Source: Lysobacter sp. (GTDB taxonomy: Bacteria; Pseudomonadota; Gammaproteobacteria; Xanthomonadales; Xanthomonadaceae). Taken from it: 64,000 nt of DNA. The stretch lies in NCBI GenBank assembly GCA_008015835.1, contig SSGH01000006.1, forward strand, positions 62,001-126,000, given 5' to 3'. The notes beneath the pieces were generated by a model, which saw nothing but the letters and a program-made list of their open reading frames with translations, made no database searches and was not told the origin of the DNA. Positions 30,547 to 60,079 of the stretch are shown here, one piece after another. Positions within the stretch are counted from its first letter, which is position 1; each line of letters opens with the position of its first letter. A program made the translations under genes and the position numbers.

Positions 30547-31608
30547 ATGACCCAAGACCGCTCCGCCCGCGACCGCCTGACCGTCGTCGTCGCCGCCTAC
30601 AACGAAGCCGAGGCCCTGCCCCTGCTGCATCCGCGGATCGCGGCGGTGCTGGACGGCTTGGCGGCCGACGCGGGCATCGACGGCAGAGTGCTGTACGTCG
30701 ACGACGGCAGCCGGGACGGCACCTGGACGGCGATCGCCGCGATCGCGAACGCCGACCGACGGGTGTCGGCGCTGCGCCTGAGCCGCAACTTCGGCAAGGA
30801 GGCGGCGCTCACCGCCGGTTTGGATCACGTCGAACACGGTGCCGCCGTGGTGGTGCTGGACGCCGACGGCCAAGACCCGCCGGAGTTGATCCCGCAGTTC
30901 GTCGCGAAATGGCGCGAGGGCTACGACGACGTGTACGGCACCCGCACCGCCCGCGACGGCGAGTCCTGGCTCAAACGGGCCACCGCGCATCTGTTCTATC
31001 GCACGATGCAGCGGCTCTCGAAAACGCCGATCCCGGCCGACACCGGCGATTTCCGCCTGCTCTCGCCGCGCGCCCTCGCCGCCCTGCGCCAATTGCGCGA
31101 ACGCCATCGCTTCATGAAGGGCCTGTTCGGCTGGGTCGGCTTCGAGCGCGTTTCGGTGCCTTATCACCGGCAAGCGCGGGTCGCCGGGCGCACCAAATTC
31201 AGTTTTTGGAAGCTGTGGAATTTCGCCCTGGAGGGCGTGACCAGCTTTTCCACCGCGCCGCTGCGGCTGGCGACGTATCTGGGCGTCGCCACCGCCCTGC
31301 TCGCCTTCGTCTACGCCGCCTGGATCGTGATCAAGGCGATGCTGTGGGGCGACCCGGTCGCCGGGTGGCCCTCGATGATGACCGTGATCCTGCTGCTGGG
31401 CGGCGTGCAATTGATGGCGCTGGGCGTGATCGGCGAATACCTGGGCCGGCTGTACGAGGAATCCAAACAGCGCCCGCTGTATCTGGTCGATCGTTGGCAA
31501 CCGGGAGTATCCTCCGGAGACATCGTTTCCGACGGAGGCCCGCGTCATGCGCACGGTACGTCAACTGCTCGAAGCGAAGTCCACATCGATCCGTACCATC
31601 CCTCCTGA
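30547..31608 (+). CDS. Family 2 glycosyltransferase with two C-terminal helices
   Basis: GtrB/DPM1-like enzyme, probably moving a sugar from a nucleotide to a polyprenyl phosphate at the inner membrane. The GT-A core has VVVAAYNEAEALPLLHPRI, VLYVDDGSRDGTW, LRLSRNFGKEAALTAGLDH and VVVLDADGQDPPELIPQF; the acceptor region has ADTGDFRLLSPRALAAL. Two helices follow (ATYLGVATALLAFVYAAWIV; MMTVILLLGGVQLMALGVIG) and EYLGRLYEESKQRPLYLVD ends the family homology. About 30 further residues overlap the next gene by 62 nt in another frame. ATG at 30547. Confidence 0.88.
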   Translation: MTQDRSARDRLTVVVAAYNEAEALPLLHPRIAAVLDGLAADAGIDGRVLYVDDGSRDGTWTAIAAIANADRRVSALRLSRNFGKEAALTAGLDHVEHGAAVVVLDADGQDPPELIPQFVAKWREGYDDVYGTRTARDGESWLKRATAHLFYRTMQRLSKTPIPADTGDFRLLSPRALAALRQLRERHRFMKGLFGWVGFERVSVPYHRQARVAGRTKFSFWKLWNFALEGVTSFSTAPLRLATYLGVATALLAFVYAAWIVIKAMLWGDPVAGWPSMMTVILLLGGVQLMALGVIGEYLGRLYEESKQRPLYLVDRWQPGVSSGDIVSDGGPRHAHGTSTARSEVHIDPYHPS

Positions 31609-31975
31609 CGCGCCCGTACTGGACGCGTTGCGCACGATGGCCGAACACGGCATCGGCGCGGTGCTGGTGATGGACGGCCCGGCGCTGGTCGGCATCCTCT
31701 CCGAACGCGATTACGCCCGCAAAGTCGTGCTGCACGGCCGCACTTCGGCCGACACCCCCGTGCGCGACATCATGAGCGCCGACGTGGTGACCACCGCACC
31801 GAACGACAGCGTCGACCGCTGCATGCAACTGATGACCGACCGCCGCATCCGGCATCTGCCGGTCCTCGAGAACGGCGACGTCGTCGGCGTGATTTCGATC
31901 GGCGATTTGGTGAAGGCGGTGATCGAGGATCAGCAGCAGGAGTTGGATCAGTTGCAGAGGTATATTGCGAGTTAA
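31547..31975 (+). CDS. Two-CBS-domain protein
   Basis: 142 residues forming one Bateman pair. CBS1 spans about residues 13-60 (GIGAVLVMDGPALVGILSER) and CBS2 about 75-130 (VRDIMSADVVTTAP; RRIRHLPVLENGDVVGVISI, GDLVKAV). Such stand-alone proteins bind adenine nucleotides and regulate partners; partner unknown. It starts within the glycosyltransferase gene, so the two are translationally coupled or co-transcribed. The last 15 residues (EDQQQELDQLQRYIAS) could form a short coiled coil. Confidence 0.9.
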   Translation: MRTVRQLLEAKSTSIRTIPPDAPVLDALRTMAEHGIGAVLVMDGPALVGILSERDYARKVVLHGRTSADTPVRDIMSADVVTTAPNDSVDRCMQLMTDRRIRHLPVLENGDVVGVISIGDLVKAVIEDQQQELDQLQRYIAS

Positions 31976-31981
31976 ACAGCA

Positions 31982-32947
31982 ATGACACTTCTCGTAGCAC
32001 TCGCAAATTCTAGACAAGCAGTCCTCGTGGCAGATCGGCGCATAACAAGCGCAGGGAAAGTTGTCGACGACGAGTTCAATAAGCTTTGCGTATTTTGTTG
32101 CGACGATGCTCGGGGCGCTTTTGCATTTACAGGAATCGCTACGGCTGGTAACTTTTCAACATCAGAATGGTTATGGCAGACGTTAAATGCGGCAGGCGCC
32201 GATCATGAAGAGTTGATCGCGGTACTCGCCTTCTTGACGGAGCGCGCTGACCGTGACATCAACACTTTACCTGTCGCAGATCGCCGGCTAAGTGTTCTCT
32301 TCTGCGGATACTTGTACCATGCCGAGCTTCCCGAGCCTGCCTGCTATTTGATGAGCAATTTCGAGTTCGAGGCGGCAGGCACAGGAAAGTTCCAAGTATC
32401 GCGACTTGATCACGGCACTGGACAATTCGTCCACGCCGCAGGCACGAGTACGGGATTTGAGCGCCGGCATCGAGAGCGATTAGAGGCATTGCTTTCAAAG
32501 CCACTTAGCGCTCCAGCCTTGGTGCGGGCGTCGGTGCTGAAACTACAGGAGTCTGCCGGGAATCCTGATGGCTTCGGCGTGATCGGCTCTCAATGTAGCA
32601 GCGCTGCCTTACTCGCTGAACGAGACACTACTATCACTACAACGTACCACTCGAACTTCGAGAGTTTGGTTGCATATGGCCCTCATGTTGTGATTAACCG
32701 AGGCCTTATCGTATGCAGCTCTGAAATATTTTCATGCACCGCACTGGCTGGGCCAGAGATACGTAAGACTGACCCTTGTTGGTGTGAATCCGGCATGACA
32801 TTCGGCGAATGTCATCTACAGAAATTTGGGTCTTACTATGTTAGGTTTGGGACTCTCCGCACACCCATGTATGCGGTTGCGGGCATGGAGTTTGACCCTC
32901 CTAGACGTTCAGGTCGGATTTTCTGGGTTGCAAGCGGATATCAATAA
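31982..32947 (+). CDS. Proteasome-like Ntn-hydrolase fold with C-terminal SEC-C motif
   Basis: 321 residues, no close family recognised. The N-terminus reads like a proteasome or HslV beta subunit: MTLLVALANSRQAVLVADRR. With Thr2 as residue 1 after Met removal, Asp falls at 17 (VADRR) and Lys at 33 (EFNKLCVF), the exact catalytic spacing of proteasomal subunits; FTGIATAG then resembles the family's Gly47 region. A SEC-C zinc motif follows near the end: P265-C266-x-C268 and C277-H278 in DPCWCESGMTFGECH. The gene is distinctly less GC-rich than its neighbours and uses rarer codons, suggesting transfer. No strong Shine-Dalgarno; it begins 6 nt after the CBS gene. Peptidase activity is inferred. 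Confidence 0.62.
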   Translation: MTLLVALANSRQAVLVADRRITSAGKVVDDEFNKLCVFCCDDARGAFAFTGIATAGNFSTSEWLWQTLNAAGADHEELIAVLAFLTERADRDINTLPVADRRLSVLFCGYLYHAELPEPACYLMSNFEFEAAGTGKFQVSRLDHGTGQFVHAAGTSTGFERRHRERLEALLSKPLSAPALVRASVLKLQESAGNPDGFGVIGSQCSSAALLAERDTTITTTYHSNFESLVAYGPHVVINRGLIVCSSEIFSCTALAGPEIRKTDPCWCESGMTFGECHLQKFGSYYVRFGTLRTPMYAVAGMEFDPPRRSGRIFWVASGYQ

Positions 32948-33297
32948 AGCCGCTAAGGATCCAACGTCGGAAACGTCATCGGCGATTCCGCCCTACAATC
33001 ACGCGGGGTTCGCTGCATTCAGCGTCATAACCCGGGTAAGGCCGCAGGCCGCACCCGGGGCTGCTCCAAACACCCAAACGCACGCATACGAATGACCCGC
33101 ACAATCAATCGTAAGATGGCTGTGAACGCAGCGAACCCCACCGCCGCACGATAAACATTCCGGCGACCGGCAATCCCGGGTGCGGCCTGTGGCCTTACCC
33201 AGGCGACGAATCCGTTCAACCGAGAAATCGCAGCGACCCGAATGTTCGAATGGTGAGGTTCGCTGCGCTCACCGCCAACCTACTGGAGTCAACGCAT
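32948..33297. repeat. Mosaic of repeat fragments, no gene seen
   Basis: This spacer holds GGGGTTCGCTGC (33005-33016), its inverted copy GCAGCGAACCCC (33128-33139) and a third, GGTTCGCTGCGCTCACC (33257-33273). Also CCCGGGTAAGGCCGCAGGCC with GCACCCGGG (33031-33059) and an inverted, two-mismatch copy at 33175-33203. It separates the AT-richer gene from GC-rich chromosome and may mark the junction of an insertion. Confidence 0.75.
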
Positions 33298-34764
33298 ATG
33301 GATATTTCCGTTTCGACGCGACGCTTGAACCGCATCGCGGCGACGCTTGCCGTCGCCGCCTTCGGCTTCACCTGTCACGCGCAAACGCAATCGCCGCCGT
33401 ACGCGGCGCAGACGCTCAATCCGAGCGTGCATCGGTTCCATCAGGCGTATTACGCGATGCAGCACAACACCTACGAGCACGGGGCGAGTTTGACCGGTTG
33501 GCTCGATGCGGGCACGCGTGCGGTGGAGTTGGATATCGTGGATGTCGGCGCGTGGTCGAGCGACGTCAACGGCCCGTACGTGAGCCACGATTCGAACGTC
33601 GGGAACCGCAATTGCTCGGGCAATCCCGACCGCATCGGTCATTGCCTGAAGGACATCATGGCGTGGATGGACGCGCACCCGGGGCAAGGGCCGATCAGCG
33701 TGTACGTGGACATGAAGCCTGGCGATTGGTCGTCGTCGAACGTGCGCCTGTTGGACGACAAACTGCGGCAGATTCTCGGCACGCGCATGTACACCTCGGG
33801 CGAGCTGTATCAGTTCGCGACGGGCGTGCCCTATTCGAGCGGAGGTCCGGCGTTTCGCGCGTCGGTAAGCGCGAACGGTTGGCCGTTGCTGAGCGCGCTG
33901 TCGAACAAGATCGTGGTCGCGTACACCGGCGGACGACTGCTGGCGACCAATCAAACCCACGGCGGCGCGATCGAATACATTCGATCGGCGACCGGCCGGC
34001 TGCCGTACGGCTTCTTCTGCCCGGACGTGGAAAGCACGCCGAATCAGATCGTGCCCGGCGGCACCGTCGATGGCGTGTCGAATGCGACCTCGCAGTTCTT
34101 CGTCTGCAGCAACCTGAAGGCGCGCGATCATCACCAAATCGCCGCCAACGCAGCGAATACGCATAAGCAACTGATGCACATGTGGGACAGCCACGTGTAC
34201 GCGAACGATAGCTACACGTTCAACTACATCGCGGTGGCGCACGGCGTCGGCGCGATCGGCCGCGACGGCGACGTGCTGCAGACCTGGGGCGGGTTGATTC
34301 CGCTCAGCGGCGTGCGGCGTTCGCTGCCGGGGTATTTCGAACTGCGCCCGACCTACGCCACCACCAAATGCATGGACGTGAACGGCAGCGGCACCGGCAA
34401 CGGCACGCGGATCGATCTGCGCGATTGCAATGGCGGCAACAACCAGCGCTTCGTCTACACCGCCGAAGGCCAACTGCGGCCGCGTCACGTCAATACGCAA
34501 TGCACCGATATTTCCGGCGGCAACGCCGGCAATCTGGTCAACATCCATCTGTGGGATTGCGACGGCGGCGCCAGCGAAAAATGGGCGATCGGCAGCGATG
34601 GACGCTTCCGCAGCGTCAGCAACGGCTCGCAGTACTGCATGAGCGTGCAGAGCGGCGGCACCGCCAACGGCACGCGCTTCGTCACCTACGCCTGCGGCTC
34701 GACCGCGCACCCGCAGTTCTTCCGCTTGAATGCGGTGCCGGATTGGGCGCAGACCTCGTTTTGA
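33298..34764 (+). CDS. Secreted Ca2+-dependent PI-PLC-like protein with ricin-type lectin domain
   Basis: Signal peptide (RRLNRIAATLAVAAFGFTCH, cut near AQTQ). The catalytic domain carries the PLC-like AMQHNTYEHGASLTGWLDAG and TRAVELDIVD, then VYVDMKPGDW, with candidate histidine and acidic metal ligands. The C-terminal 130 residues are a ricin-B trefoil with three repeats: TKCMDVNGSGTGNGTRIDLR then NNQRFVY; TQCTDISGGNAGNLVNIHLW then ASEKWAIG; QYCMSVQSGGTANGTRFVTY then HPQFFRL. It likely hydrolyses a glycerophospho-diester while bound to glycans. ATG at 33298 has GGAG 10 nt upstream. 488 residues. Confidence 0.8.
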   Translation: MDISVSTRRLNRIAATLAVAAFGFTCHAQTQSPPYAAQTLNPSVHRFHQAYYAMQHNTYEHGASLTGWLDAGTRAVELDIVDVGAWSSDVNGPYVSHDSNVGNRNCSGNPDRIGHCLKDIMAWMDAHPGQGPISVYVDMKPGDWSSSNVRLLDDKLRQILGTRMYTSGELYQFATGVPYSSGGPAFRASVSANGWPLLSALSNKIVVAYTGGRLLATNQTHGGAIEYIRSATGRLPYGFFCPDVESTPNQIVPGGTVDGVSNATSQFFVCSNLKARDHHQIAANAANTHKQLMHMWDSHVYANDSYTFNYIAVAHGVGAIGRDGDVLQTWGGLIPLSGVRRSLPGYFELRPTYATTKCMDVNGSGTGNGTRIDLRDCNGGNNQRFVYTAEGQLRPRHVNTQCTDISGGNAGNLVNIHLWDCDGGASEKWAIGSDGRFRSVSNGSQYCMSVQSGGTANGTRFVTYACGSTAHPQFFRLNAVPDWAQTSF

Positions 34765-34773
34765 TCGACGGGA

Positions 34774-34815
34774 CGCGAAGCCCGCGGCGTCGGTCTCGAC
34801 GCCGCGGGCTTCGCG
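34774..34815. terminator. Perfect 18-bp hairpin between converging genes
   Basis: CGCGAAGCCCGCGGCGTC (34774-34791) is exactly inverted at 34798-34815 with a 6-nt loop. It lies 10 nt after the PLC stop and 22 nt from the end of the converging peptide gene, so it can serve both; no U-tract on either side. Confidence 0.75.
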
Positions 34816-34836
34816 AGCGACAGCGATCTTCGGCGA

Positions 34837-35049
34837 TCAATTCACCCAGCAACGATTGCGCACGCGGCACACTTCGTCGTTGTCGTAGCACGTTTGCGGA
34901 TTGGTGCCGCTGGCGAGGCAGGCATTGAGCGCTTCGCGACACTTGCGGCACGCCAAGGTTTCGGCGGCGGCGGCGGAGATGCCGGCGGCGAACGCGACGG
35001 TCGCGGCCGCGAGGATCAAGGTCTTCTTGAAACCGATGCGAATGTTCAT
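34837..35049 (-). CDS. Secreted six-cysteine small protein, 70 aa
   Basis: The signal peptide (KKTLILAAATVAFAAGISAA, cut near AAAAE) is followed by about 40 residues with six cysteines in the order C-x2-C-x6-C-x10-C-x6-C-x5-C (ACRKC, NACL, TCYD, EVC, RNRC). Three disulfides are likely. A strong CAGGAG Shine-Dalgarno precedes the ATG at 35049. The mature protein is only mildly basic. No family recognised; options are a small periplasmic or extracellular binding, inhibitor or antimicrobial peptide. Nothing in the neighbourhood identifies an export or immunity partner. Confidence 0.7.
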   Translation of the reverse strand: MNIRIGFKKTLILAAATVAFAAGISAAAAETLACRKCREALNACLASGTNPQTCYDNDEVCRVRNRCWVN

Positions 35050-58432: not shown

Positions 58433-59243
58433 TTCGCCCGCCTATCTCCACGGCTTCTCCAGCACCGAACAGGCCCGGCTGGTGAAACAAGCGCGCATCG
58501 CGGAAAGCACGATCTTCCGCAATATCGACTACGGCGGCGCGACGCGTCTGCTCGAAGTCGGCAGCGGCGTCGGCGCGCAGACCGAAATCCTGCTGCGCCG
58601 CTTTCCCGAACTGCACGCGACCTGCGTCGATCTGAACGAAGCGCAACTCGCGGCGGCGCAGGAGAATCTCGGCGCGATGCCCTGGTTGGACGGGCGCTAC
58701 ACCCTGCGACAAGCCGACGCGACCGATCTGCCGTTCGAAGCGCGCAGTTTCGACGCCGCGTTTCTGTGCTGGGTGCTGGAGCATGTGCCCTCGCCCGCGC
58801 GCGTGTTGGCGGAAGTGCGGCGCACGCTCGCCCCGGGCGCGCCGGTCTACATCACCGAAGTGATGAATTCGTCGTTCCTGCTCGACCCGTACTCGCCGAA
58901 CGTGTGGAAGTACTGGATGGCCTTCAACGACTTCCAAATCGAGCAGGGCGGCGACCCGTTCGTCGGCGCCAAGCTAGGCAACCTGCTGCTGGCGGGCGGC
59001 TTCCGCGACCCCACCACCGAAATCAAGACCTTCCACTTCGACAACCGCGAACCGGCCAGGCGCAAGACCATGATCGCGTTCTGGGAAGAATTGCTGCTCT
59101 CCGCATCGGACCAATTGATCGCCGCTGGCGCCGTCACCGAAACGGTGGTGGACAACATGCGCCGCGAGATGCGGCTGGTGCAAAACGACCCCAACGCGGT
59201 GTTTTTCTACTCGTTCGTGCAGGCGAGGGCGACGGCCTACTGA
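58416..59243 (+). CDS. Class I SAM-dependent methyltransferase
   Basis: 275 residues. SAM motif I is RLLEVGSGVGAQTEILLR (residues 44-61), followed by ATCVDLNEAQLAAAQENLGA (acidic loop), ADATDLPFEARSFDAAFLCW (motif II/III region) and GAPVYITEVMN. The shape fits small-molecule methyltransferases of the ubiE/arsM-like group; substrate unknown. Translationally coupled to the small gene upstream. Confidence 0.88.
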   Translation: MKTTDDSPAYLHGFSSTEQARLVKQARIAESTIFRNIDYGGATRLLEVGSGVGAQTEILLRRFPELHATCVDLNEAQLAAAQENLGAMPWLDGRYTLRQADATDLPFEARSFDAAFLCWVLEHVPSPARVLAEVRRTLAPGAPVYITEVMNSSFLLDPYSPNVWKYWMAFNDFQIEQGGDPFVGAKLGNLLLAGGFRDPTTEIKTFHFDNREPARRKTMIAFWEELLLSASDQLIAAGAVTETVVDNMRREMRLVQNDPNAVFFYSFVQARATAY

Positions 59244-59395
59244 TCGGGCAGAGCGGCGACCGCGCCACGCCGCGCCATGAACGGTTCGCCCATGGCGCCC
59301 TCCGCGGACGAAAGCGTCGTTATCGGTTGATTCCGGCTTTTTTTTGCCTCGATAATGGGCCGAACGACGCGATACTCCTCAAGGAGCGGGCCGAA

Positions 59396-60079
59396 ATGGA
59401 ACCCAGCATTACGGATTGGATTCAAGCGATCGCCGAAAGCGTCGCCGCATTCGGCATTGTTTTGGTGCTGATCCAGCTCATGCTCACCGCCAAGCAGATC
59501 AAACTCGCACGGGAGCAAAACGAAGAGATTTGCCGTCAGAACAACGCCACGATTCTATGGAACAGAATGCAGGCCGCATTCGCTTTCTTCCCCGAAGAAC
59601 TCTTCATGAAAAGGGAAATCGAGCTCATCGAGCAGATGAGATTGATGGATATCGAGCTTGTCCCTCGATTCGTCGGCACATTATCCGATGGCGAAGCGCA
59701 GAGAATTTTCGATCATCCCGATTGCGCAAGAGCTCTTCGATACTATTTGAACGTCCTCGAGGATTATTGCCTCGCCGTCAACATGGGCCTGGTGGACGAC
59801 GATCTTGCTTATGCGCAAATGCGCGGCGCCATCATCGCTCGCGCCACTTTTTTCTGGCCTTTGATCGATCTGGTGAGAAAGAAGTCGGACGACGAAGATA
59901 TCTTCTGCGAGCTCGAGATCACCTCGAAAAGGTGGAAAGAAAAAGACGAGCAAACCAGGGAAATGCGCAGAAAAGTGATCGAGGAAGCCAAGTCGATCGC
60001 CGAAAGCATCATCTCGGATGCCGTCAGGGACGTGAAATCGAATCACTTGCGCAACGTATATCCGCCGAAATCGAATTGA
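59396..60079 (+). CDS. DUF4760-like membrane-anchored protein, 227 aa
   Basis: One N-terminal helix (ITDWIQAIAESVAAFGIVLV extended by LIQLML) followed by a coiled, charged region (TAKQIKLAREQNEEICRQNN) and a helical domain containing ALRYYLNVLEDYCLAVNMGL, a DUF4760-type stretch. A long charged C-terminal helix ends the protein (KEKDEQTREMRRKVIEEAKS). The DNA is clearly less GC-rich than its neighbours. AAGGAG lies 10 nt before the ATG at 59396. Function unknown. Confidence 0.6.
   Translation: MEPSITDWIQAIAESVAAFGIVLVLIQLMLTAKQIKLAREQNEEICRQNNATILWNRMQAAFAFFPEELFMKREIELIEQMRLMDIELVPRFVGTLSDGEAQRIFDHPDCARALRYYLNVLEDYCLAVNMGLVDDDLAYAQMRGAIIARATFFWPLIDLVRKKSDDEDIFCELEITSKRWKEKDEQTREMRRKVIEEAKSIAESIISDAVRDVKSNHLRNVYPPKSN

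Follow-up and report, generated by a model that had tools for sequence, protein, structure and literature searches.

The proteasome-like gene and its catalytic residues

The window analysed here is a 64,000-nucleotide stretch of Lysobacter sp. contig SSGH01000006.1. An open reading frame (ORF) at 31982-32947 (+) encodes a 321-residue protein that starts Met-Thr and joins a proteasome-like N-terminal nucleophile (Ntn) hydrolase domain to a SEC-C (SecA-like metal-binding) motif. Seventeen relatives were reached, giving 18 members with the window protein. The features of the gene are:

31982..32947, + strand: proteasome-like Ntn hydrolase gene with a SEC-C motif near the C-terminus, 321 aa (ORF, Pfam, predicted model, 18-member alignment)
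31982..32665, + strand: proteasome-like domain, residues 1-228, predicted order S1 S2 S3 S4 H1 H2 S5 S6 S7 S8 H3 H4 S9 S10
31985..31987, + strand: Thr2 codon, proposed N-terminal nucleophile after Met removal (Thr in 18/18 members; Anbu 5nyw alignment)
32033..32035, + strand: Asp18 codon, equivalent to Asp17 of proteasome beta (18/18 members)
32081..32083, + strand: Lys34 codon, equivalent to Lys33 of proteasome beta (18/18 members)
32132..32134, + strand: Gly51 codon, proposed oxyanion-hole Gly47 of proteasome beta (18/18 members; HslV profile match)
32768..32818, + strand: SEC-C motif, residues 263-279, C266-x-C268-x8-C277-H278 (Pfam PF02810, E 2.8e-6)

The Thr1/Asp17/Lys33 spacing of proteasome beta subunits, on which the initial annotation was built, is exact when Thr is counted as residue 1, and the Gly-rich segment that it placed near residue 50 holds Gly51 (50 with Thr as 1) within AFTGIA. 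When the whole window was scanned in six frames for M[TSC]-x15-D-x15-K, the 31982 start was the sole match among 583 Met codons, each with at least 100 open codons after the Met. The gene is single-copy in its own genome; an ordinary HslV was rejected, since this genome encodes its HslV separately, on another contig.

In the MAFFT alignment Thr2, Asp18, Lys34 and Gly51 were each invariant (18/18 members); Asp18 was partly selected for, as the peptide patterns of one scan contained Asp18 or residues 25-33 and those of a second contained Asp18, the other three residues were absent from the patterns of both scans, and the genome searches were profile-based, favouring all conserved columns. The three catalytic positions thus did not vary among these homologues. 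Arg19 was found in 17/18 members, Arg20 in 15/18, and Gly202, where strand S9 begins, in 16 of the 17 members having letters at that column. Thr directly follows an ATG or GTG start in all 18 members, with starts assigned by us save for the annotated phage and plasmid genes, whose starts agree.

The predicted model has a proteasome-type fold, as the initial annotation had anticipated, with a beta-sandwich core and helices H1-H4, of which H1 (residues 60-74) and H2 (residues 78-92) bear on the comparison with connectase below. Its alignment with Anbu 5nyw begins at model residue 2 and chain residue 1, and positions 2-52 of the family profile match residues 1-49 of HslV, the best single PDB sequence match. 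The active-site geometry proposed for Thr2, Asp18 and Lys34 rests on this register and topology rather than on inter-residue distances. HslV shares the catalytic register and fold with the window protein, but the latter has a long C-terminal part and no match to PF00227. Anbu differs in not being among the family profile's three PDB matches; its long C-terminal helix H5 with coiled coil was not seen in the window model, where the predicted local distance difference test (pLDDT) score of the C-terminal part is largely <50.

The SEC-C tail marks one branch of the family

SEC-C was the only Pfam family over cut-off in the window protein (27.5 bits against 20.4), and PHROGs returned no match; the pattern CxCx8C[HC] is satisfied and all four ligands that the initial annotation had named are present. 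The motif occurs in 3/18 members, the others being Trebonia kvetii (L016, PCPCGSGRKYKYCH) and a Terriglobia metagenome-assembled genome (MAG; L017), and both keep all four ligands. The fusion in L017 is a putative one, because its SEC-C sits in a different frame, past a frameshift. Those outcomes listed by the initial annotation as speaking against its proposal that were put to the test did not occur. In a tree of N-terminal parts from 16 members (without L059 and L060, and with the placement of L045, on the longest branch, least sure), a single branch sets the three SEC-C members apart from the rest (support 75/82, 78% of 200 bootstraps; 4/500 shuffles as low). With the tail confined to one branch, it was perhaps gained once, the branch then crossing phyla, a scenario with moderate support. 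We conclude that the SEC-C tail marks a sub-branch and not the whole family, and that the combination is, judging by sequence, also present in distantly related bacteria.

SecA, YecA/AscA and YchJ likewise carry a CxCx8CH motif towards the C-terminus. In such SecA-like metal-binding proteins the tail belongs to a translocation ATPase or to proteins whose function is unknown or chaperone-like, whereas here it belongs to a proteasome-like enzyme, and the window copy no longer has the motif's basic residues. According to the text of PMC8076867 available to us, the metal-binding tail of SecA binds SecB, YecA and YchJ carry near-identical domains, and unreviewed work suggests a YecA-SecB interaction. 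PADLOC matched the window protein with two E2 models only, both falling on SEC-C (E 0.0013 and 0.014); the likeness to the E2-like proteins of PADLOC-DB is confined to SEC-C, and no E2 domain was detected because these matches stop there. Outside SEC-C, PADLOC found no described defence effector in the window protein. No report of a proteasome-like/SEC-C fusion was found in the literature searched; a 'sec-c' string in the available text of PMC5777263 reads 'SEC-coupled'.

Relatives and distribution

The catalytic domain, described as an orphan in the initial annotation, has relatives and belongs to a published proteasome-like family. In the available text of PMC8665760, Fuchs, Alva and Lupas (2021) describe 22 new prokaryotic proteasome homolog groups of unknown function, which share Thr/Ser1, Asp17, Lys33 and Gly47 and for which they saw no genomic context hinting at function. 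By distribution the best fit is DAH (Distant Actinobacterial proteasome Homolog; 77 sequences), reported there from Actinobacteria, Proteobacteria, Cyanobacteria, other bacteria and phages, with an extra C-terminal part that resembles no known structure. DAH and the window family have the same fold and Thr1/Asp17/Lys33/Gly47 set and are similar in distribution and length, a likeness drawn from the description and not from DAH sequences. Neither SEC-C nor zinc is mentioned anywhere in that main text.

The relatives (L002, L008, L009, L013, L015, L016, L017, L018, L019, L020, L028, L040, L041, L044, L045, L059 and L060) include, besides the two SEC-C members, a Mycobacterium marseillense plasmid protein (L008, NZ_AP022585.1), which matches the window protein at 35% over 113 columns (E 1e-13), Gordonia phage Nymphadora gp30 (L009, one of nine Gordonia phage records), a viral contig (L015), Acidovorax kalamii (L018), Nocardia carnea (L019) and two copies in the same Chloroflexi MAG (L020 and L028). 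Left out of the 18-row counts were the broken copies L042/L061 and L043, the duplicates L010, L011 and L047, and the eight other Gordonia phage records.

Intact members are rare and sporadic in distribution. With the centre genome of every search included in the count, they were found in 2/398 genomes with a single-sequence query and, in further searches, in 2/321, 3/300, 3/345 (plus two broken copies), 3/150 (plus one broken copy) and 0/199 genomes, the last apart from the centre genome's frameshifted copy. A true member was found in 1/149 genomes, namely the window genome, a second match being weak and within a 1175-aa frame. Viral scans with queries P0005, A4, A10 and A11 returned only L011, L015 and L047, and those with P0001, P0002 and A9 returned no relative. 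Matches to SEC-C only (5/7 genomes in the single-sequence search) or to the C-terminal part only (37/41 genomes in one search, mostly in SecA-size frames) were set aside. By eye, the five SEC-C-only matches are a different kind of SEC-C protein (L003, L004, L006 and L007) and SecA (L005), and L014 is a transporter; L022 and L046 are matches in frames encoding something else.

The window copy lies at a variable site

The gene is bordered by:

31547..31975, + strand: CBS-domain gene, resident left border (Pfam CBS E 7.2e-28; genus homology ends at its stop codon)
32948..33290, no strand: right border, intergenic repeat mosaic common to the L031 variable site (inverted repeats; L031 comparison)

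Kilobase 32001-33000 has the lowest GC content of the 64 in the window (0.524). The gene has a GC content of 0.522, where 44 coding-like ORFs have 0.667 (sd 0.029); its third-position GC (GC3) is 0.50, where theirs is 0.84 (sd 0.034). These ORFs were chosen by GC3 >0.75, so low-GC genes are left out and the spread is understated. Both comparisons bear out the compositional contrast first noted for this gene. A second GC-poor kilobase lies at 59001-60000 (0.555).

The CBS gene ends at 31975, leaving the 6-nt gap already described, and was found in 10/11 genus genomes. In the nine besides the window genome the alignment with the window stops between 31969 and 31978, where the CBS gene has its stop codon (31973-31975). 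The stretch behind it (window 31976-33250) is variable in the genus, as read from the downstream DNA of six relatives: L033 and L039 have the same regulator-like gene next after CBS, L034 has that gene further on with other genes between (all by eye), and L031, L032 and L038 have different DNA. In L031, the closest genus relative (89% identical over 1952 columns), the site holds another small ORF followed by the window's intergenic repeats. The downstream repeat mosaic of the initial annotation comprises three short inverted repeat pairs (29-32 nt, within 32945-33283) and recurs behind a different gene. With differing DNA after CBS across the genus, the site looks like a place of repeated insertion. 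The earlier view of the gene as acquired is backed by its low GC, its presence in the window genome alone among the 149 searched and the variable site. An Rfam search (31000-35000) and a tRNA search (whole window) returned nothing. The next gene downstream (33250-34764) encodes an enzyme resembling PI-PLC (PI-PLC-C1 match below threshold) that also has a ricin-type lectin domain.

Proposed mode of action

These data support a two-part reading, a proteasome-like hydrolase plus SEC-C. Beyond the catalytic core the mechanism is one that we infer: loss of the initiator Met would leave Thr1 at the N-terminus, where together with Asp17 and Lys33 it would attack amide bonds, and Gly50 (mature numbering) is predicted at the oxyanion hole. 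The window protein lacks a propeptide, and it has no known partner unfoldase, no search for one having been made; the substrate may therefore be unfolded chains or a single specific client, and not ATPase-fed proteins. The SEC-C motif, presumably metal-binding, would act as a docking tag that recruits the enzyme to a binding partner, of which SecB, the ribosome or another chaperone is the likeliest, and the gene would travel as mobile cargo. Taken as a whole, this account of a Thr1 hydrolase with a docking tag, carried as mobile cargo, is probably correct.

Several results weigh against it. Pfam PF00227 (Proteasome) matched 0/16 members scanned at E up to 1, and an NCBIfam scan of the window protein returned no match. 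Comparison with two HslVs by hhalign was weak (probability 6.6%, E 0.0055). The structure model was built from 9 rows, with mean pLDDT of the five models from 65 down to 44; pLDDT is <50 at residues 21-30, 239-259 and 280-321, and at ~60-65 in the SEC-C part the placement of SEC-C is not fixed by the model. SEC-C is missing from 15/18 members. The window motif is without the Lys/Arg of the other two (ESGMTFGEC vs GSGRKYKYC and GSGKRYKRC), and 43 residues follow it, against 15 and 19 elsewhere.

If active, the protein would be a proteasome-type enzyme recruited through a SecA-type tag instead of an ATPase. There are two handles on function, the partner bound by the tag and the effect of the gene on phage growth, because the branch carries a docking tag and some relatives adjoin restriction enzymes, a TIR gene and integrases. 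A broader scenario, which we regard as unlikely, is that the family is a mobile protease module spread across phyla by phages, plasmids and defence islands, and that the SEC-C branch targets nascent or exported proteins via SecB or the ribosome, destroying chosen new proteins (e.g. of a phage) without an ATPase.

Neighbourhoods of relatives and alternative functions

Neighbourhoods were read at 17 loci. The family member adjoins a type II restriction enzyme at L017 (PADLOC E 2.8e-87), a type IIG enzyme at L028 (read in L055; E 1e-238) and a TIR-TM gene at L040 (read in L049; E 8.8e-56). In the Gordonia phage the copy is flanked by tail genes on one side and the repressor/integrase region on the other, and the L008 plasmid has an annotated recombinase. 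By eye, integrase genes adjoin L015 and L059 and lie ~4 kb from L018, L016 has transposases nearby, and the L044 locus (read in L051) holds an HsdR-like fragment together with toxin-antitoxin-like genes. Altogether 10/17 loci have a defence or mobile context and the seven others nothing clear. Such partly defence-like, mobile surroundings together with the SEC-C branch were not met in the literature searched.

These surroundings raise the alternative of a phage-defence or conflict effector, a protease of defence islands and prophages that on infection would cut a protein of the phage or of the host, or set free a partner toxin; for some relatives, a neighbouring protein with R-x4-H, the signature of HEPN ribonucleases, is a possible partner. 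R-x4-H was present in 5/7 neighbour proteins tested, 4/5 sharing the strand of the family member, and at L008, L017, L018 and L028 it lies in the second half of the next same-strand gene's protein; however, by our estimate ~0.4 occurrences per protein of such length are expected by chance, two of the seven lack it, and one of the five (upstream of L016) is on the other strand. The HEPN partner remains a lead because no homology was detectable among these neighbours, and Pfam gave one DUF4145 hint, below threshold (17.7 bits vs 23.1). The three defence loci stand without a background rate, PADLOC has no match to the catalytic domain, and no neighbour of the window copy was seen to be a defence gene; the variable site holds ordinary-looking genes in relatives. 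A defence function is possible on this evidence, though somewhat unlikely.

Other neighbours were also seen. The 239-aa protein of L008:648-1367, whose gene precedes the family member by 13 nt, has RNDAGH close to its C-terminus and is perhaps a HEPN-type partner, on motif grounds. A small HEAGH metalloprotease-like gene (weak M50/M41 matches) lies directly upstream on the prophage-like contig at L015:7355-7990, and in genome G311 (L054:5441-9973) a family member is within 3 kb of hslV- and hslU-like genes (by eye). The small ORF upstream of the L060 member (L074:5624-6112) resembles a membrane protein and carries two CxxC-x-G zinc-type repeats towards its end.

That the protein is no protease but joins specific proteins as a ligase, or acts as an amidase on small molecules, is improbable. 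Connectase, of the same family, is a monomeric ligase in the account of Fuchs et al. (PMC8665760, text available to us), two of the profile's three PDB matches were connectase-type (positions 148-228, E ~0.6), and 1/16 members had a sub-threshold Pfam connectase match (E 0.16); yet connectase lacks helices H1 and H2 by the same account, both are predicted here, and the best single PDB match is HslV. It is quite doubtful that the window copy is a decaying import no longer doing the job for which the domain is under selection in relatives, as its divergent SEC-C tail, the sporadic distribution and the broken copies elsewhere (L042/L061, L043) might suggest, since 321 codons are open and the four core residues and four metal ligands are all kept.
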